Positions 183-8,626 of a DNA stretch of 8,863 nucleotides are shown piece by piece; position 1 is the first letter of the stretch; each line of letters opens with the position of its first letter. The notes beneath the pieces were generated by a model that was not told where the DNA came from, searched no databases, and saw nothing but the letters and a program-made list of their open reading frames with translations. The position numbers and the translations under genes were made by a program. Source of the stretch: Flavobacteriales bacterium (GTDB lineage: Bacteria > Bacteroidota > Bacteroidia > Flavobacteriales > Flavobacteriaceae); NCBI GenBank assembly GCA_002747735.1, contig PDQE01000036.1, positions 1-8,863 of the forward strand, written 5' to 3'.

Positions 183-1856
183 CTATAAATCATCAGTATT
201 GAGATTTGGATCTAACGGAGTGGTTGTAAGCACTATATAATCTAAGTTTAGTTCGTATGTGCCGGTGTCCCAATTTCCTGTTGTAGCTCCAACTTTTAGT
301 ACAAATGGTCGTGTTGCATCCAATCCGAATGAATTTGGATCAATTTGTACTGAACGCCATTTCCATTGATTTTCTGTTGGAACAAATTTATAGTCATCAC
401 CATATCCCTGTTCACCGGTAAAGTTAAACCAAGTAAGTGCATTTCCGTCTTGGTCAAATTCTAATTGGCAATAGCCGTAGTTATTACCGGTATTAATGAG
501 CATATTTACCCAAATACCATTGGCGTAGGTTTGTGCATCCAATCCGGCCACCTCAACTGAGGCGTCTGTCATCCAGTTCCATGAACTTGTTATGGCTTGT
601 GTATAAGAGATATACTTGTTGCCTTCATTTACACCTTCTAAGCCTCCGGAACCGGTGTTTTTAAGTTCAAAGGCACCGCCTTTTTCGGTTTCGCAATCCC
701 ATGCTACGGTTGGGTTTAAAGGCCCATCTGTAATCATTACCATATTTACAGACATGTCATAAGCCATGTTGTTGCCATTACCAACGTTACCACCTCTAAA
801 CTGAATGCCTATTTTATCAATCATACCTTTTACAACAGGGAAATCTAATTCTTCCATAGAATAAGAACGCCATTCCCAACCATTGGTAGTACTCATATAG
901 TCATCATCATAACCAAATGCTGTTGTTAAGTGTCGGTCTTGTTCGCCATTTGAAGCGTCGTAGGTAAGTGGTTGTACGTAACCTTGTTTGCCATTTGAGT
1001 TTATAAGCATGGTAATATGCGGGTCATTGTAAGCAGACAAATCGAATCCTTTGCCGTTATTGTCGCTGTAGATTTTACAATATGTGCCATTCCAGCCATT
1101 GCCCACAGGGGCAGTTACTCTAAATGCAGTGCCTAACAATCCGGTAACTTCTTCCATAGTGGCTTGTGCAGCGTCATTGCCGTCTTCTACCGTATAGTCT
1201 TTATTAATATCAATAACCATAAGCGTTTGTTTAGGTAAGTAAGTATCAATGGCCTGTACTACTTTTATGGTACCTGAAGTTTGTGTGTCTCCTGCTTTTG
1301 GTATCACTACAATAGTTACCTCATCACCTATTGCCAGGTCGGCTTCTATAGATGTATAGGTTGCTGCTTCTGGTTTTGCAGCACCCAATAGTGAAACAGA
1401 TGTTCCGTTTACTTTTACCTCTTTAATTAAATCCATGTTTTCACCTTCTAAAATAAAAGGTTTGTTTTGCTGAATTTCTGACGGCCATGAAACAACAATA
1501 GCCGGAAAAAACTGAGGCGTAATCATTAAGCCGGAATTGTATTTTCTTCCATATTCGTTAGAAACTGACAACTCTCCTGCTGCTACATTACGAGGTACTT
1601 TTACTACCATGGAATTACCGTCATCTGAAACCGATGAAATTTTAAATTCATAAGCATCAATACCCACGGAGGTAGCTGTGTTTAAGTTTTCTCCGGTAAT
1701 TGTTATTTCTTCATCAACAAATGGTTGATCATCAGAAATGTTTAATATTTTGGCTACCGGAAAATCTATATCATACACAGAAGTTTCATTGCTGCAACTG
1801 TTCCATAAAAAGTAACTTATGGTAAGCAGTAAGGTGTATATTATTTTATTTTTCAT
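183..1856 (-). CDS. Surface glycan-binding lipoprotein with two IPT/TIG domains and a tandem beta-sandwich pair (SusE/F-position protein)
   Basis: A 557-residue protein in the SusE/SusF position after susC and susD. It probably sits on the outer face of the outer membrane and binds the glycan imported by its neighbours. The N-terminus is a lipoprotein signal with a weak lipobox (WNSC, acylated Cys21). Residues about 34-114 and 118-200 resemble IPT/TIG immunoglobulin-like spacer domains, with ITGEN and LEGEN motifs. The remainder is an internal duplication. Repeat A (about 207-383) and repeat B (about 384-551) share MLIN (283, 452), GYxDDY (315, 484), WxWRS (327, 498) and PL[ND]P (379, 547) at nearly equal spacing. 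Their tryptophan-rich sequence fits carbohydrate-binding beta-sandwiches, like the C-terminal domain of SGBP-B-type proteins. It starts 18 nt after the susD stop, in the same operon. The ligand cannot be predicted. No catalytic motif was seen. Confidence 0.82.
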   Translation of the reverse strand: MKNKIIYTLLLTISYFLWNSCSNETSVYDIDFPVAKILNISDDQPFVDEEITITGENLNTATSVGIDAYEFKISSVSDDGNSMVVKVPRNVAAGELSVSNEYGRKYNSGLMITPQFFPAIVVSWPSEIQQNKPFILEGENMDLIKEVKVNGTSVSLLGAAKPEAATYTSIEADLAIGDEVTIVVIPKAGDTQTSGTIKVVQAIDTYLPKQTLMVIDINKDYTVEDGNDAAQATMEEVTGLLGTAFRVTAPVGNGWNGTYCKIYSDNNGKGFDLSAYNDPHITMLINSNGKQGYVQPLTYDASNGEQDRHLTTAFGYDDDYMSTTNGWEWRSYSMEELDFPVVKGMIDKIGIQFRGGNVGNGNNMAYDMSVNMVMITDGPLNPTVAWDCETEKGGAFELKNTGSGGLEGVNEGNKYISYTQAITSSWNWMTDASVEVAGLDAQTYANGIWVNMLINTGNNYGYCQLEFDQDGNALTWFNFTGEQGYGDDYKFVPTENQWKWRSVQIDPNSFGLDATRPFVLKVGATTGNWDTGTYELNLDYIVLTTTPLDPNLNTDDL

Positions 1857-1874: not shown

Positions 1875-3563
1875 TTAATAGCCTGGGTTTTGTTCTAATC
1901 CATAACTTTGAACTTCCGTTGTAGGAATGGGTAATACATATACTTTATTACCGTTGGGGCCGTCATAGCATTTAGATTCTAAATTGGCTTTTATTCCTTT
2001 AAAATAGTTGTTTATGTTTGGACTGTAATAATCTGCATATTTACCTCCGGTTTGGCGTTCGGTTTCTTTTTCTGTTTGCATAACATCCAAGAATCTGCCT
2101 GTACGGATTAAATCGTAAAAACGCAATTGTTCCATTGCTAGCTCTACCCGGCGTTCGTGCCATATAGCTTTTAATAAATCGTCTCCGCTTACAGATGATG
2201 ATATATCCGGCAACAGGCCGTTGGTGTTAGCAGGTGCAGCACTATAATCCATTTTTCCTTCGGCATATCCCATGCAGTAGGTACTTGTACGGGCACGTTG
2301 TCGTACAGCATTTACTTTTTCACGAGCTTCTCCTTCTTTGCCGAGACGATAGGCAGCTTCGGCATTCATTAATAATACATCAGCATAGCGTATTATTTTT
2401 ATGTTACGGTCTGCAGCTCTTGGTAAAGAAGGAAGTTTTGGTAATGCTGCCTTTCGGTTTAGCCAGGGAGAACCCTGCTGGTCTGCTTCATATTTTTTCT
2501 TTTCGCCATATACAATACCACTGTTATAGCTTTCGCCATAGATGGTACAAGATAGCCTTGGGTCGCCATTTTCAAAGGCATTGACAAGGTCAACAGTTGG
2601 GTTGTTAAAGCCCCATCCGGAACCATCAACACGATTGCCCTGATATTGATTAAAGTTGGTGCCTATAGAACCGGGGGCATATTCCTCTGAACCTTTACCA
2701 AACTGAAATTCAAATACACCTTCTACAGAATTGTCATTTTCTGTTTCCCAAAGCATAGCATAGTTACTTAATAGTTTATATTCTCCGGAGAGGATAACCT
2801 CATTGGTTAAGTTATACACATCTTGCCAGGTAACAGTCTGGTTGTCTATATCGGTACCTATTTGGTACATATAAATTCTTGCCAATAGTGCTTGTGCAGC
2901 TCCTTTGGTAGCTCTACCCATATTTGCAGCGGTATATTCACTTCTTGTGGGTAATAAAGTTGCTGCATTTTTTAAGTCTTCGGCTATTTGTGTATATACT
3001 TCGTTTACCGATACACGTTTTGCGTTGCCAAAATCTGAGGGTTGTACAGGTGATGTAAATAAGGGTATAGGGCCAAACATACGTACTAAGTACCAGTTAA
3101 AATAGGCTCTTAAAAAAAGTGATTCGCCCATTAGTCGATCTCTTAATTCTTTATCCCAGGTTACATCTTCTAACCCTTCAATTACATAGTTGGCTCTTGA
3201 TACGCCCCAGAAGCCGTGAATCCAGAAAGATTCTGCTTGTGTGAGCGATGGGCTGCCGGTACCGCCAATAATTCGCAATAGGCTGTTGTTGTCACTGTCA
3301 TTACTGCCTTTTTCGGCATCGTCTGAAGTCATGTCTCCGAGAAAGAAATCAAAATGGCCGCCTACCCATTGTCCTTCGGGGCCGGCACCTTCGTCAAATT
3401 GAAGCAGGTCATAAATGCCATTTACTGCATAAATAGCATTGTTTTCTGAATTAAAGTAGTTATCACTATTTTCAACTCCTTGTTGTGTTAAGTCAAGATA
3501 GTCTTGACAAGCAAACAATGAAAAAAGTAATGGCAATACTATATAATATATTATTTTTTTCAT
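1875..3563 (-). CDS. susD: SusD/RagB-family outer-membrane glycan-binding lipoprotein
   Basis: A 562-residue SusD homologue of normal length. SusD proteins form a lid on the SusC barrel and deliver bound oligosaccharide to it. The signal peptide ends in a good lipobox (LFAC, Cys19) followed by QDYLDL, the usual SusD start. Residues 43-53 (AIYAVNGIYDL) and 147-164 (ESLFLRAYFNWYLVRMFG) match the conserved SusD N-terminal helices, and GRATKGAAQALLARIYMY at 216-233 is the characteristic TPR-type helix. The C-terminal half has the RagB/SusD hallmarks: IIRYADVLLMNAEAAYRLG, then WHERRVELAMEQLRFYDLIR, and the terminal QNPGY. The gene starts 10 nt after the susC stop and ends 18 nt before the glycan-binding protein, so the three are co-transcribed. 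Family assignment is secure; the substrate is unknown. The symbol marks the family, not starch specificity. Confidence 0.95.
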   Translation of the reverse strand: MKKIIYYIVLPLLFSLFACQDYLDLTQQGVENSDNYFNSENNAIYAVNGIYDLLQFDEGAGPEGQWVGGHFDFFLGDMTSDDAEKGSNDSDNNSLLRIIGGTGSPSLTQAESFWIHGFWGVSRANYVIEGLEDVTWDKELRDRLMGESLFLRAYFNWYLVRMFGPIPLFTSPVQPSDFGNAKRVSVNEVYTQIAEDLKNAATLLPTRSEYTAANMGRATKGAAQALLARIYMYQIGTDIDNQTVTWQDVYNLTNEVILSGEYKLLSNYAMLWETENDNSVEGVFEFQFGKGSEEYAPGSIGTNFNQYQGNRVDGSGWGFNNPTVDLVNAFENGDPRLSCTIYGESYNSGIVYGEKKKYEADQQGSPWLNRKAALPKLPSLPRAADRNIKIIRYADVLLMNAEAAYRLGKEGEAREKVNAVRQRARTSTYCMGYAEGKMDYSAAPANTNGLLPDISSSVSGDDLLKAIWHERRVELAMEQLRFYDLIRTGRFLDVMQTEKETERQTGGKYADYYSPNINNYFKGIKANLESKCYDGPNGNKVYVLPIPTTEVQSYGLEQNPGY

Positions 3564-3573
3564 CTTTTAAGTA

Positions 3574-6500
3574 TTAAAAAGTTATGTTAAGACCAAATGA
3601 ATAGATGCGTGGTTGTGGATAGTTTACCATATCTACACCATAATATAACGGATTTTCATATAGGCCAAATAGTTCGGGGTCTAAGCCACTGTATTTGGTA
3701 AATGTAAGTAAGTTGTCTGCTGCTGAGTAGATACGCAAACGCTTAATACCCATTTTTTGGGTTATATCTTGTGAAAATGTATAACCCAATTGAATTTGTT
3801 TTAATCGCAGGTACGAACCATCTTCAACCATGCGGTCACTTACCGCAGTGCCATTTTGGTTGCTGTCCGTTAAGGCTAAACGAGGTAAGTTTGATGTGGT
3901 ATTATCTGCACTCCAGTGGTTTAATGCCATGTCTTTGCTAATGTTGGTTTCAAACATGTCTGTGCTGTATAGCGATTGATACATGGCGTTAAATATTTCG
4001 TTACCAACGGAATAGTTCATAAATGCAGTAAAGTCGAAATTTTTATATCCTAAATTTAAGTTAATGCCTCCGGTAAAATTGGGGCTTGCACTGCCAAGAT
4101 ATGTTTTGTCTTCCTCATCTACTAAACCGTCATCGTTTTGGTCAATAAATATAACATCACCCAATTGAGGTGTGGTACCTCCGGGGCCTTTAATTGCCGT
4201 TCCGTTTGAGGTTACATAATTATCTAAATCTGCTTGTGTTTGAAAAATACCATTGGTTTTATAACCATAAAAATAAGCAATTTCCCTACCTTCTTCGGTT
4301 TTTGTTGTATTGCCGATGCGTCCAACACTACCGGAGCGTATCGGGTCACTTCCTGCCAAACTGGTTACTTCGTTTTTAATCCATGTAGTATTAATGCCTA
4401 TTCCGTAAGTAAAATCGCCTGCGGTATTATTGTAGTTTATAGAAAACTCAACACCTTTGTTTTGCATGGTACCTGCATTTATAATAGGACTTCTTTTGCC
4501 GGCATAAAGAGGGATAGGAACGCTTAGAATCATATCTTTTGTTTTGCGAACAAAATAATCTATGCTACCGTCTAATTTATTATCAAATAATCCGTAATCG
4601 ATACCTATATTATACTGTTCGGCAGACTCCCATTGCAATTCTTCATTAGCCAGTTGATTTTGTACGCTTCCTTCTACAATTTCTTTATTGAAAGCGTAGG
4701 TGTAGCCGTTGTTTACACTTGTTACGTAGCCAAAATCACTGGCACTGTCTTGATTGCCTACAAGGCCCCATCCGGCTCTAAATTTTAAAACAGGTATTAC
4801 ATCACGCAAAGATTCCATAAAGTCTTGGTTGGCAATATTCCATCCGAATGAGAATGATGGAAACCATCCCCAACGGTAATCTTTGGTAAAGCGGGAAGAG
4901 CCGTCAAAACGCAAAGTGCCGGTAATCATATATTTATTGTCCCAAGAAAAGTTGGTACGGGCAAAGTATGACTGTAAGCGATTGTGGCCTTTACCACCAC
5001 CTAATTGAAATTTCTCGGCATCTTTTGCAGCTCCTAAGTATTGTAGGTCTGTATCTGCGGGAACGCCATATCCTTTAGCCCATATATCAGACCATTCTGT
5101 TGCTTGAAGCTCCATGCCCAAAGTGGCATTGATATTGAGTTTGTCAAATCCTTTATTGTAAGAAAAATAATTGGTGTTTACCCAAATATCGCCATTACCT
5201 CTTTTTCGATAAAGTGTTTGTTCGTCATTTTTTTGACTGGCCGTAATGTAATATTCCGGACTAAATTTTTTGTAATCATTAAAGATAAGGCTTCTGCCAT
5301 ATTGCGAACGGAAAGACAGCCCTTTTGTAAACAAATCATCTATCTGCAAGAAAAAGTTTCCTACAAATCTATTGTCTTTTGTTTTGGTATAACTGTTTTG
5401 CCAAATTCCCAAAGCAGGGTTGGTCTGTGCGGGCGAGTAATATATCTGGCCGTAAAAATTGGTATAAGTATCCCATGCAGCAGACACAGGGTCGCTACGT
5501 AAAGCCCCTGGTAAAACACTACGATAAAATTCATTGTCGTTGTCATCGGGTTTTTTATGCCAAACATAGTTTATGTTCAGTCCTAACTTTACATTTTCTT
5601 TAATTGAATAGGTATTGTTGGTGTGTAACATAAACTTTTTAAGTTTTGTACCTTTTATAATACCTTGCTCATCAGAATACGTAGTGCCAAAGTTATAGTT
5701 GTACTTATCGTTATTGCCTTGTACACTTACGCTATGTCTATTAGAAAAAGCTACACGTGTAACTTCGTCTTGCCAGTTAGTACCTTTTAAATAAGTGCCG
5801 TTTTTTTCACTTTCAAGAATGTATTGTAATCTTGGATCAGTAGCACCTATCGTTTCTCTTGCGTGGGCAAATTGAGTGGCATCTGCCATATCTAAGGTTT
5901 TGGCAACTTTGGAAATCCCAAGATATGTAGTGGCTTCTATTTCCATTTCTTTTCCTCTGGCACCTGATTTGGTTTTAATTAAAACAACACCGTTGGCACC
6001 TCTGGAACCGTAAATTGCAGTTGCCGAGGCATCTTTTAATATTTCCATACTCTCTATGTCTGATGGTGCAATGTAGCTAATATCGCTACTTGGAAAACCA
6101 TCTACTACATATAAAGGATTGGAATTGTTTACGGTGCCTATACCACGAATACGTATGGTAGCTCCTGCTCCTGGACTACCTGAATTGGAAATAACATTTA
6201 CCCCCGCCATACGGCCTTGCATAGCTTGTACCGCATCAAGAGAGTTTGTCTTTTTAAGTTCAGCAACATCTACCTTGCCAACGCTTCCGGTAAGGTCACT
6301 TTTACGAATTACACCATACCCTACTACTACCACTTCGTCGAGTAATTGTGTATCTTCTTCTAATGTAACGGTAATATTGGTACTGCCATTTAGCGGAATT
6401 TCTTTTGTTTTAAATCCCATATAGGAAATAACCAACGTAGGATTGCTTGTGGTTATCTTTAATGAGAAATTCCCGTCAAAATCAGTAGTTGTACCGTTTA

Positions 6501-6645
6501 ATGTTCCTTTTTCTACAACAGACGCTCCAATAACAGGATCACCTTGTTCATTTTCGGTTACGGTTCCTGAAACAGTATTCTGCTGTGCCAGCATTACTTG
6601 ACAGCCAAAAAGCATAACTGCAAGTATTGAATATATATATTTCAT
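3574..6645 (-). CDS. susC: SusC/RagA-family TonB-dependent outer-membrane transporter
   Basis: A 1023-residue TonB-dependent transporter that imports oligosaccharides through the outer membrane with its SusD partner. The start chosen is ATG at 6645. The frame can be extended to a TTG at 6684, but that codon lies inside the promoter -7 box, and only the 6645 start puts the signal peptide (MKYIYSILAV..., predicted cut after MLA, residue 20) at the N-terminus. Domain order: carboxypeptidase-regulatory-like domain (about 23-97), SusC TonB box LDEVVVVGYG (102-111), plug (about 118-228, with RIRGIGTVNNSNPLYVVDG at 165-183 and EILKDASATAIYGSRGANG at 201-219), then the barrel, ending in Phe as outer-membrane barrels do. 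It is the first gene of the operon. All parts look intact. An LFGC stretch at 12-15 resembles a lipobox but is probably not one. Substrate unknown. Confidence 0.96.
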   Translation of the reverse strand: MKYIYSILAVMLFGCQVMLAQQNTVSGTVTENEQGDPVIGASVVEKGTLNGTTTDFDGNFSLKITTSNPTLVISYMGFKTKEIPLNGSTNITVTLEEDTQLLDEVVVVGYGVIRKSDLTGSVGKVDVAELKKTNSLDAVQAMQGRMAGVNVISNSGSPGAGATIRIRGIGTVNNSNPLYVVDGFPSSDISYIAPSDIESMEILKDASATAIYGSRGANGVVLIKTKSGARGKEMEIEATTYLGISKVAKTLDMADATQFAHARETIGATDPRLQYILESEKNGTYLKGTNWQDEVTRVAFSNRHSVSVQGNNDKYNYNFGTTYSDEQGIIKGTKLKKFMLHTNNTYSIKENVKLGLNINYVWHKKPDDNDNEFYRSVLPGALRSDPVSAAWDTYTNFYGQIYYSPAQTNPALGIWQNSYTKTKDNRFVGNFFLQIDDLFTKGLSFRSQYGRSLIFNDYKKFSPEYYITASQKNDEQTLYRKRGNGDIWVNTNYFSYNKGFDKLNINATLGMELQATEWSDIWAKGYGVPADTDLQYLGAAKDAEKFQLGGGKGHNRLQSYFARTNFSWDNKYMITGTLRFDGSSRFTKDYRWGWFPSFSFGWNIANQDFMESLRDVIPVLKFRAGWGLVGNQDSASDFGYVTSVNNGYTYAFNKEIVEGSVQNQLANEELQWESAEQYNIGIDYGLFDNKLDGSIDYFVRKTKDMILSVPIPLYAGKRSPIINAGTMQNKGVEFSINYNNTAGDFTYGIGINTTWIKNEVTSLAGSDPIRSGSVGRIGNTTKTEEGREIAYFYGYKTNGIFQTQADLDNYVTSNGTAIKGPGGTTPQLGDVIFIDQNDDGLVDEEDKTYLGSASPNFTGGINLNLGYKNFDFTAFMNYSVGNEIFNAMYQSLYSTDMFETNISKDMALNHWSADNTTSNLPRLALTDSNQNGTAVSDRMVEDGSYLRLKQIQLGYTFSQDITQKMGIKRLRIYSAADNLLTFTKYSGLDPELFGLYENPLYYGVDMVNYPQPRIYSFGLNITF

Positions 6646-6681
6646 AAGCTCAAAATGTTTATGTATTATTTTTACACGATA

Positions 6682-6713
6682 CAAAAGTAGTTAGCAAGAT
6701 TTTTGAGTTCAAG
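6682..6713 (-). promoter_or_regulatory. Bacteroidota-type promoter of the susC-susD operon
   Basis: On the minus strand a -7 box TACTTTTG (6682-6689) matches the Bacteroidota consensus TAnnTTTG exactly. A -33 element CTTG (6710-6713) lies upstream, with 20 nt between its TTG and the -7 box, which suits the primary sigma factor of this phylum. Transcription would begin near 6675, giving a leader of about 30 nt before the ATG at 6645. The leader has no Shine-Dalgarno sequence, as is common in the phylum. Confidence 0.7.
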
Positions 6714-6738
6714 TATTATTTTGCCTAAAACCGATACT
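6712..6738. promoter_or_regulatory. Putative operator upstream of susC, shared with the araC promoter
   Basis: Plus-strand AGTATTATT-N12-GATACT, followed by a T run. The same 15 specified bases with the same 12-nt gap occur at 8482-8508, at the promoter of the AraC-family gene. The outer bases form a short dyad (AGTAT...ATACT). Here the site abuts and slightly overlaps the -33 element on its upstream side, where an activator would bind. The match is direct; operator function and the identity of the binding protein are inferred. Confidence 0.5.
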
Positions 6739-6865
6739 TTTTTATCTTATAGAAATTAATATTTATTTTGAGCGATAAAAATGATTTTGATATTGAAAAC
6801 GGGTTATTATTTGTATGATTAAGACAGATTAGCCTCTGTCAATAATCAGTTATACGCACTCTTGC

Positions 6866-6946
6866 GTTGCATTGCTCCGGTTCAAAGAATGCAGTATTAC
6901 ATTGAGTGTTCTGAGAATTTTTGGTAATGATATCCGGAGTTGCAAC
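6866..6946. repeat. Imperfect inverted repeat between the beta-barrel gene and the susC promoter
   Basis: GTTGCATTGCTCCGG (6866-6880) is the near reverse complement of CCGGAGTTGCAAC (6934-6946), with 53 nt between. A smaller hairpin, GACAGA/TCTGTC, lies at 6823-6840. The segment is less AT-rich than the adjacent promoter region and holds no gene with a start codon. On the minus strand it follows the barrel gene directly, so it could be a 3'-end structure or the worn remnant of a mobile or repeated element. No poly-T tract follows either hairpin. Confidence 0.35.
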
Positions 6947-6964
6947 TAAGGCTGTCAGGATTTT

Positions 6965-7546
6965 TTAAAATTTATATCCAATCCCAATTTGTATTCCAAA
7001 TTGTGTTAATTTTTGGTAATGGTTTTCTTTTTCAAACGAAATTAATGAATGTCTTTTAAAGTTTGGATTAATATAAATCAGAAAATTTTTGAAATTATAT
7101 TTTCCTCCAACTCCTAAACTATATCCTATTCCGGATTGAGAATCAAAACTCTTTTCTCCTTTTTGAAAATCTAAAGTCGGCCCGCCATTAATGTAGAAGT
7201 ATTTGCCGAAACAATAATTTACATAAAATGGAATGGAGACTAACTTTAAATCTTCTTGACTTGAATTTACAGGTGTTCCCATAAATTCGGGTGTTATTTT
7301 TACTTTTGCACGTATAAAATTGATACCTGTTTCAACAGATAATTTATTGGATAACTTTTTTAAATATTTGAATCCGAATTCATAGGAATTGCTATTGTCA
7401 TAACTGGCACCTCCATCCAATTCCTTACTGCTCAAAAGTTTACTGTCAACAAAGCCGTAATAAATTCTAAATTCATTTGCGTTTTGAGAATAGCTTTTTA
7501 AAGATGTTATAATGAATAGCAATAATAGTGTTGAATAGGTTTTCAT
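6965..7546 (-). CDS. Small outer-membrane beta-barrel protein, function unknown
   Basis: A 193-residue protein with a Sec signal peptide (MKTYSTLLLLFIITSLKSYSQ, probable cut before the Gln at 21) and no lipobox Cys. The mature part alternates polar and hydrophobic/aromatic residues in short strands divided by loops (for example LSVETGINFIRAKVKI, SIPFYVNYCFGKYFYINGG and IGYSLGVGGKYNF). It ends in IGIGYKF, with the terminal Phe of an outer-membrane barrel. Size and pattern suit an eight-stranded barrel of the PorT/OMP_b-brl type, which is common and poorly characterised in Bacteroidota. It starts 69 nt after the end of the AraC-family reading frame remnant, on the same strand, so it may be co-transcribed with the regulator. 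No clear promoter of its own was seen. A direct role in glycan uptake is not shown. The frame stays open for 41 codons past its stop, probably by chance. Confidence 0.75.
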   Translation of the reverse strand: MKTYSTLLLLFIITSLKSYSQNANEFRIYYGFVDSKLLSSKELDGGASYDNSNSYEFGFKYLKKLSNKLSVETGINFIRAKVKITPEFMGTPVNSSQEDLKLVSIPFYVNYCFGKYFYINGGPTLDFQKGEKSFDSQSGIGYSLGVGGKYNFKNFLIYINPNFKRHSLISFEKENHYQKLTQFGIQIGIGYKF

Positions 7547-7614
7547 TTTAAATGAGTTTAGATTTAACTTACGTATTGATATATCTTTTGATTAAAATAG
7601 ACGTAAAATATGTC

Positions 7615-8446
7615 TTAAACCAGTTTTCTGGTTTTTTGATAATGATTTCTAAATTCTTTTGGCGTAAGGATTTTTTTGTTTTTAAAAATCCTGTTAAAGT
7701 TTGAAAGATTGTTGGCCTAATCGCATATCAATAATATAGTCCGAAACCGTTTTGCCGGTTCGCAATTTAAAAAAACGGCTAAATGAACTTTCTGTCATTC
7801 CTACTAAAGAAGCCAGTTGGCTTAGTTCTATTTTGTTTTTGTAATTTTTGTTAATGTAAGTGTCTATTTTTAATATCCTTCTGCTGTTAGTTTCTTCCCG
7901 AGAGCTTGAAAAAGAATCACTTGCCAGTTTTTTTACATTTTCAAACTGAGAAAGCTCATGCAGTATTCTAAGAAAGTTTATCATGGCATAAAAGCTTTCT
8001 TTTTCGGCATCAGCTGCCAAAGCATCTATTTTTGAATAAATTTTTAAAATGGCTTCCATTGGAAAGACAATGCCTTTTTGGGCATTCTTTAGCATTTTTT
8101 TTATGCTTTTAAACTGTCGTTTTTGCATGAACTCACTATTAAAGAGTTCTGAGGAAAATTGAATGGTAATTTCTCTAATCTTCTTCGATTTGCATTCGTG
8201 TTGCTCCCAAACATGCTCCAAATCATTACCGGCAATGAGTACCAAATCAAAATCGCCTATAACTTCAATAGAATCGCCTACAATTCTTTTAACACCTTTC
8301 CCATTTTGAATAAAATTGAGTTCAAATTCCTGATGTGCATGTAGTGGATAAGTAAATTCAGACTTGTATCTGTCAATAATATAAAAACAATCTTCGTTTG
8401 ACAGAGGTGTCATCTCGTGGATGATATGTTTTGTGGTTTTGACCAT
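7615..8446 (-). pseudogene. AraC-family transcriptional regulator, broken by an internal deletion in the C-terminal DNA-binding domain
   Basis: The reading frame from ATG 8446 gives 250 residues and stops at 7694. The N-terminal half looks like a cupin ligand-binding domain (YPLHAHQEFELNF, His36, His38, Glu42). The first helix-turn-helix of an AraC domain is intact at about 206-228 (IELSQLASLVGMTESSFSRFF), followed by RTGKTVSDYIIDMRLG. Family members continue here with about 22 residues holding the linker helix and the first helix of the second HTH. Instead the frame runs into QQSFKL and a stop. A second frame, beginning 1 nt after the RLG codons (7713 down to 7618), encodes 32 residues starting NNLSNFNRIF and containing LTPKEFR, the normal AraC C-terminus, ending at TAA 7617-7615. 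This fits a deletion of about 65 bp at 7713-7717. The product may bind ligand but probably cannot bind DNA normally. Assembly error remains possible. In context it would have been the regulator of the susC operon. Confidence 0.85.
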
Positions 8447-8474
8447 GAATACATTAAAATATGTTTACGTTAAA

Positions 8475-8482
8475 CAAAATTA
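8475..8482 (-). promoter_or_regulatory. Candidate -7 promoter box of the AraC-family gene
   Basis: The minus strand reads TAATTTTG, an exact match to TAnnTTTG, 28 nt upstream of the ATG at 8446. Transcription would start near 8468 and leave a leader of about 20 nt. No TTTG-like -33 element lies at the expected distance; that position is occupied by the putative operator. The promoter may therefore be weak or depend on a factor. Confidence 0.45.
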
Positions 8483-8508
8483 GTATTATTCTATCAATTT
8501 CTGATACT
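8482..8508. promoter_or_regulatory. Second copy of the putative operator, at the araC promoter
   Basis: Plus-strand AGTATTATT-N12-GATACT-ATTTT, with the same spacing and orientation as the copy upstream of susC. Here it touches the -7 box and covers the region between -10 and about -36, where bound protein would block RNA polymerase. This placement fits negative autoregulation, in contrast to the upstream, activator-like position at susC. The sequence match is observed; function is inferred. Confidence 0.5.
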
Positions 8509-8626
8509 ATTTTGTCGTTAAAATATGTTTTTACTTAAAATAGAACTCAGAATGTTTTTTGGATGTATTATACCATTTCCACCTCAAAATTACTCATAAT
8601 TGAATGTCTATAAACATCTTTTAGCT

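Follow-up and report, generated by a model that had tools for sequence, protein, structure and literature searches.

Two promoters in the genome of a Flavobacteriales bacterium, one before a susC-type transport operon and the other before a gene for an AraC-type regulator, bear the same sequence motif, and the locus thus raises the question of which protein reads this motif and to what effect. The window, by which we mean the whole stretch of DNA analysed (8,863 nucleotides; contig PDQE01000036.1 of assembly GCA_002747735.1), contains exact copies of AGTATTATT-N12-GATACT at 6712-6738 and 8482-8508, in one orientation, and no other match. Both susC and araC lie on the minus strand, and in working orientation the motif reads AGTATC-N12-AATAATACT toward susC and araC. 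The two exact copies compare with none in 200 dinucleotide shuffles of the window, and their N12 spacers differ, so that a recent duplication does not account for the pair. An earlier note, made from the letters of this DNA, had reported this same-orientation pair and the lack of a third full copy, and both statements stand. A weight matrix built from the sites of other genomes only, to which the two window sites had led as members of a set of 22 seeds, ranks the susC copy (30.1 bits) and the araC copy (29.6 bits) first and second in the window, and the third-ranked match (15.9 bits) is the susC site displaced by one 21-bp half-site. We consider it likely, from comparison of sequences, that both copies are operators of a one-component AraC/XylS-type regulator in its intact form, which would activate susCDE and repress araC. 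Very probably the motif is bound by an AraC-type regulator that thereby turns on an operon for the uptake of plant mannan.

The putative target of the first operator is a gene encoding a SusC/RagA TonB-linked outer membrane protein (susC, 3574..6645, minus strand; TIGR04056, 921.7 bits). The same strand bears susD (1875..3563; PF07980, 136.3 bits) and a gene in the SusE position (183..1856), the product of which has a lipoprotein-like N-terminus by eye and no family of its own; some of its 97 homologues carry a precomputed IPT/TIG domain (PF01833). A further minus-strand gene between araC and susC (6965..7546) encodes an outer membrane beta-barrel protein (PF13505, 37.5 bits). Directly 3' of the SusE-like gene lies a terminator-like, perfect 20-bp inverted repeat with a 5-bp loop (100-144), enclosed by an outer pair seen by eye, AAAGAGGCGG (21-30) and CCGCCTCTTT (148-157). 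Rfam gave no family at gathering score for the window.

The regulator gene (7694..8446, minus strand) encodes an AraC-type protein of 250 residues that has lost its second helix-turn-helix (HTH) through an internal deletion with a frame change. An intact relative (P0001, 298 residues) is 98% identical to it, and the closest further relatives by protein (P0002-P0006) are 73-75% identical. The window protein departs from the family sequence after residue 244 and its HTH scores lie below cut-off (PF12833, 20.8 bits; PF00165, 22.2 bits). P0001 has the dual HTH of PF12833 at 74.8 bits (cut-off 33.6) and is assigned to the AraC/XylS family; its N-terminal part matches no Pfam family. The structural model of P0001, good for the DNA-binding domain alone (mean pLDDT 59.3; residues 1-102 below 50), places seven helices at 189-295, with pLDDT of 84-92 in the blocks spanning 191-290 and 61 in the last block. 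In this model HTH2 comprises the helices 257-263 and 269-280, all of which are absent from the window copy, and this copy is predicted not to bind. The deletion may be a variant of this strain or an error of assembly. If it is real, the two operators would have no regulator here unless another copy serves them, and the circuit, having a broken regulator, may not work in this strain. Viral contigs held no relative of the regulator, and a near-mode search of plasmids returned no similar DNA.

Each operator consists of a 14-bp half-site, GATAAAATARTAYT, present twice as a direct repeat with 21-bp spacing. The susC operator (6712..6746, minus strand) has its distal half-site at 6733-6746 and its proximal one at 6712-6725; the half-sites, GATAAAAAAGTATC and GGCAAAATAATACT, are identical at 8 of 14 positions, and five of their six differences are transitions. 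The araC operator (8482..8516, minus strand) has the same period, with the distal half-site at 8503-8516 and the proximal one at 8482-8495; here the half-sites, GACAAAATAGTATC and GATAGAATAATACT, agree at 9 of 14 positions and all five differences are transitions. Transitions thus make up 10 of the 11 half-site differences when both operators are pooled.

Conservation of the operator was followed in a set of loci comprising the best 80 of 546 confirmed contig matches to an alignment of the intact regulator family. These loci are largely from Bacteroidales, and their AraC proteins are 58-65% identical. The motif occurs at two mismatches or fewer in 29 of these best 80 loci, often directly 3' of araC. 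The weight matrix, grown from seeds that were picked by eye among earlier motif matches, yields the longer coding-strand consensus AAAWAGTATYA-N6-GATAAAATARTAYTTG and finds an operator match of at least 16 bits in 54 of the best 80 loci, one of which (L024) is counted solely through a match inside an open frame. Built without the window sites, the matrix gave 74 matches of at least 16 bits in the 1.39 Mb of the 80 loci, compared with 1, 0 and 0 in three dinucleotide shuffles and 1 in the reversed sequence. With the matrix trained for each locus in the absence of its own and similar sites, at least 16 bits were kept by 55 of the 81 loci that result when the window is counted in. Among further loci with AraC proteins 46-64% identical, 11 of 23 reached 16 bits, or 9 of 19 after removal of four that repeat training loci. 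Outside the window the full matrix gave 73 matches, of which 46 face susC and 22 a different gene; for 3 the locus contains no target, and the other 2 fall within an open frame. The earlier note had held that lack of conservation upstream of orthologous susC and araC genes would speak against its proposal. At susC the site is conserved: it is present there in 42 of the 48 loci, among the best 80 of 546, that have susC at most 6 kb downstream of araC. No match of at least 16 bits was found nearby in 26 of the best 80 loci; a search of the genomes of 16 of these for distant sites, with two mismatches allowed, succeeded in 12, where 28 sites lay beyond the locus that had been retrieved (versus 1 in the control).

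The distance between the operator and the susC promoter is also conserved. Bacteroidetes promoters carry TAnnTTTG at -7 and TTTG near -33, according to the accessible part of PMC7366714. In the window the susC -7 box, TACTTTTG (6682..6689, minus strand), lies 49 bases from the operator start, and the operator at its proximal end runs into a putative -33 box (CTTG, 6710..6713, minus strand), which is 20 bp from the -7 box; the earlier placement of the site just upstream of the -33 box is corrected accordingly. After removal of sites below 20 bits, of sites too close to the edge of a locus and of the displaced susC match in the window, the remaining 74 were thinned to 69 non-redundant sites. TAnnTTTG, which has a background density of about 5e-4 per base, starts at +49 from the site start in 58 of these and at +50 in 4, and the remaining seven include the araC site of the window. 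In regions found without the box in the search pattern (n=8, two of them homologous) the box stood at +49 in 17 of 20 sites; the same offset in L264-L269 was discounted as evidence, these sites having been found with the box in the pattern. With the -7 box at +49 the operator overlaps the -33 box, which is activator geometry, and a proximal half-site reaching the -33 box at a fixed promoter distance is the arrangement of a class II activator. By what is established for AraC-type activators, the regulator would be expected to activate at susC and, from the different placement of its site there, to repress at araC.

Two observations concern the surroundings of susC promoters. Downstream of the susC -7 box, positions 6657-6672 resemble a half-site, being 88% identical over 16 nt to 6707-6722, and the matching columns are little conserved in relatives. 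In a Bacteroides fragilis genome (L146), and likewise in a relative (L224), tandem operators precede one susC, at 14480-14506 and 14658-14684 of L146, with -7 boxes at +55 and +49.

Genes associated with the site or with related SusCDE sets include GH26, GH130, a GlcNAc-2-epimerase-family protein, AXE1 esterases, a GPH symporter, GH5 and an alpha-galactosidase. Mannobiose epimerases belong to the GlcNAc-2-epimerase family. Together the linked genes point to beta-mannan and other beta-mannosides. The open frames of the window contain no glycosidase, GH26, GH130 or epimerase gene, and beta-mannan is the putative substrate of its operon, judged by related SusCDE genes that are followed by GH26 in L008 and by GH26 and an epimerase-like gene in L139. 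The distant sites precede GH3, a gene followed by GH26, an SSF symporter gene, a phosphodiesterase-like gene and a DUF2264 gene; in L146 the distant site precedes susC. In Bacteroides faecis (L221) and two other Bacteroides (L222, L223), the sites often have GCTAA instead of GATAA, and those of L221 precede DUF2264, phosphodiesterase-like and DUF4925 genes and an SSF symporter gene, near a GH130 gene.

The second window copy differs from the first in its placement. The araC -7 box, TAATTTTG (8475..8482, minus strand), stands at +26 from the operator start, 23 bp closer than at susC; the operator (8482-8516) abuts the box, fills the space between -33 and -7 and covers the putative araC promoter, so the earlier description of this copy as spanning the region upstream of the -7 box is upheld. 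A perfect 13-bp direct repeat, TTAAAATATGTTT, at 8454-8466 and 8518-8530 (64 bp apart) brackets the operator. When 105 araC upstream regions, at least five of which are loci fetched twice, were scanned with the full matrix, only the window exceeded 12 bits, and the next best reached 7.4. Since the window stands alone in this respect, its araC copy is best taken as a lineage-specific site. A half-site matrix reached at least 10 bits in 2 of 93 araC regions (thinned from 104), the window being one of the two, versus 9 of 337 control regions, from which regions near an operator had been excluded. Half-site scores overall are slightly higher at araC (Mann-Whitney p 0.01), so that weak sites may exist there, but the top of the score range shows no such excess.

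Repression of araC, as the earlier note proposed it, is suggested by the geometry by itself, the operator lying over the promoter, whereas the conservation upstream of orthologous araC genes that was expected with it did not appear: a full site is found in 0 of the 104 other regions. This absence, together with the lack of any excess of strong half-sites there, also favors the view that the araC copy does not repress, being recent and possibly idle or else activating araC from an unrecognised promoter, for which the second TAnnTTTG, at -146 from the araC ATG, could serve. Against this view, the copy has both half-sites intact, and its 29.6 bits come from a matrix to which the window contributed no sites; moreover, a TAnnTTTG adjoins the copy, and the activating position at +49 has no box. 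We regard a non-repressing copy as possible but distinctly less probable than a repressing one, in which the operator, moved 23 bp closer to the -7 box, would block the promoter and impose negative autoregulation as a feature of this lineage.

The earlier note had also remarked that the outer dyad, AGTAT...ATACT, might call for another dimeric regulator. Such a repressor or activator, binding the dyad in place of the AraC protein, would account for the presence of the dyad in both window copies, and the araC copy does read equally well both ways (10 of 15 positions in the direct and in the inverted alignment). Across the 69 sites, however, the likeness of the columns to one another is best at a direct offset of 21 bp (+0.5 over 23 columns), above the best inverted alignment (-3.9, 11 pairs). 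Inversion about the centre of the dyad gives -5.0 (20 column pairs), well above the remaining direct offsets tried, all of which score -12.5 or lower. Counted site by site, the direct reading is better in 48 of 69, the inverted one in 11, and 10 are ties. The half-site terminates in a quasi-palindrome (ARTAYT) that gives rise to the outer dyad, which appears to be largely a by-product; the 21-bp direct repeat, the usual AraC layout, reads best, and the need for another dimeric regulator falls away with it.

A dyad-binding protein of another kind would also leave unexplained that the motif tracks the AraC gene across genomes. We surveyed 393 genomes of the order, several of which also contain training loci, and took as AraC genomes those in which AraC was matched at an E-value no higher than 1e-80. 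The operator-promoter pattern, at three mismatches, is present in 14 of 24 AraC genomes versus 9 of 369 others (Fisher p 6.7e-14, an optimistic value since the genomes are related) and is absent at this setting from 10 of the 24; the reversed control of the pattern occurs in 2 of 393 genomes. Among the nine exceptions, two with 0-1 mismatches adjoin an AraC that is 43-44% identical, so that the association twice extends down to this level, in two more a homologue of 41-44% identity lies elsewhere in the genome, two have only a 31-33% one, and three have no AraC homologue at 1e-20. The specificity of the search depends on the pattern used: without the -7 box, at three mismatches, it is unspecific (68 matches versus 41 in the reversed control, 11 genomes), and the exact 16-base core gives 18 versus 7 (11 genomes). 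Taken with the half-site analysis, this makes a dyad-binding regulator other than the AraC protein improbable.

Less probable still is that the motif is bound by a hybrid two-component regulator with an AraC-type output domain. It has in its favor that the published motifs of such regulators are direct repeats too, on average 21 bp apart in the accessible portion of PMC3878776. Nonetheless, five related SusCD loci that lie beside hybrid two-component regulators (L139, L140, L142, L144 and L145; the regulator of L140 is split over two open frames) contain no match of at least 12 bits, even with SusC proteins 43-64% identical to that of the window, and the window contains no open frame for such a regulator. 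These loci were located through the SusE-like protein. Two more (L141 and L143), cut by contig ends and with no regulator identified there, likewise have no match of at least 12 bits. The motif follows the regulator across the loci compared, being linked to AraC and absent beside hybrid two-component regulators. The earlier proposal of one regulator at susC, in activator geometry, is supported by this absence from related operons whose neighboring regulator is of a different kind, in addition to the conservation of the site, its fixed -7 spacing and its co-occurrence with AraC. Chance likeness between two AT-rich promoters, for which one could cite the uninformative three-mismatch search (mean of 0.72 matches per shuffle; at least two in 35 of 200 window shuffles), is refuted by the lack of exact copies in all 200 shuffles and by the conserved operator and fixed -7 spacing in other genomes.

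The operator, its conservation, its spacing and its linkage to a regulator gene are thus evident in the genomes compared, and from them we infer binding by the regulator, the sign of regulation and the ligand. Two subunits of the intact regulator would sit on one face of the DNA, one on each 14-bp half-site, as set by the 21-bp spacing. At susC the proximal half-site would bring the regulator to the -33 box, and the regulator would activate susCDE with the inducer present, the inducer probably being a sugar derived from beta-mannan. Opinion is evenly balanced, in our judgment, on a wider proposal: that one AraC lineage with a rigid module controls beta-mannoside uptake in Bacteroidales, that SusCDE operons have swapped their type of control, and that the araC loop is new to the window lineage. 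The rigid module would be the direct repeat with the -7 box at +49; related SusCDE sets would pass between one-component and hybrid two-component control by exchange of this promoter module; and a second site would have arisen at araC in the window lineage, creating a feedback loop absent from the relatives examined.

Searches of the literature, as far as the accessible text went, found no description of the motif. It is absent from the accessible portions of PMC3878776, PMC13276840, PMC5094572, PMC9860051, PMC12704710, PMC7366714, PMC11253607, PMC10766802 and PMC13357471, and the published motifs found in such portions belong to hybrid two-component and SusR-like systems, not to this one-component regulator. 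As far as the available text of PMC5094572 goes, the Bacteroides ovatus beta-mannan polysaccharide utilization locus (PUL) has GH26 genes, and the regulator Bacova_02097 binds mannan oligosaccharides. A Muricauda beta-mannan PUL comprises GH26, a SusC/D pair and a predicted GH130, and an AraC-type factor is expressed there besides a hybrid two-component system (HTCS), in the part of PMC9860051 available. GH26 is common to these PULs and to the linked loci described here; the same portions of the two sources describe no operator.

A close parallel in mechanism is AraC of Escherichia coli, which activates as a class II activator at araI1-araI2, where the half-sites form a 21-bp direct repeat bound through a dual HTH domain. 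The operator described here shares the 21-bp direct repeat, a promoter-proximal half-site that touches the -35 region (here -33) and a regulator family with the dual HTH; it differs in its half-site sequence and in its Bacteroidetes -33/-7 promoter. Likeness extends also to the HTCS operators of Bacteroides, which, in the accessible portion of PMC3878776, are direct repeats averaging 21 bp before SusC/SusD operons and are bound by an AraC-type DNA-binding domain. Unlike an HTCS, the regulator here, in its intact form, is a one-component protein of 298 residues without a sensor kinase, and related operons with an adjoining HTCS, unlike the operons of this motif, have no such site. The mechanism would be an ordinary one, and the operator and its regulon are a new and well-supported prediction from genome sequence. 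A motif this sharp would make a mannoside regulon readable from genomes, along with candidate target genes that lie tens of kilobases away from the regulator. Related operons, some beside a one-component and others beside a hybrid two-component regulator, form natural pairs.
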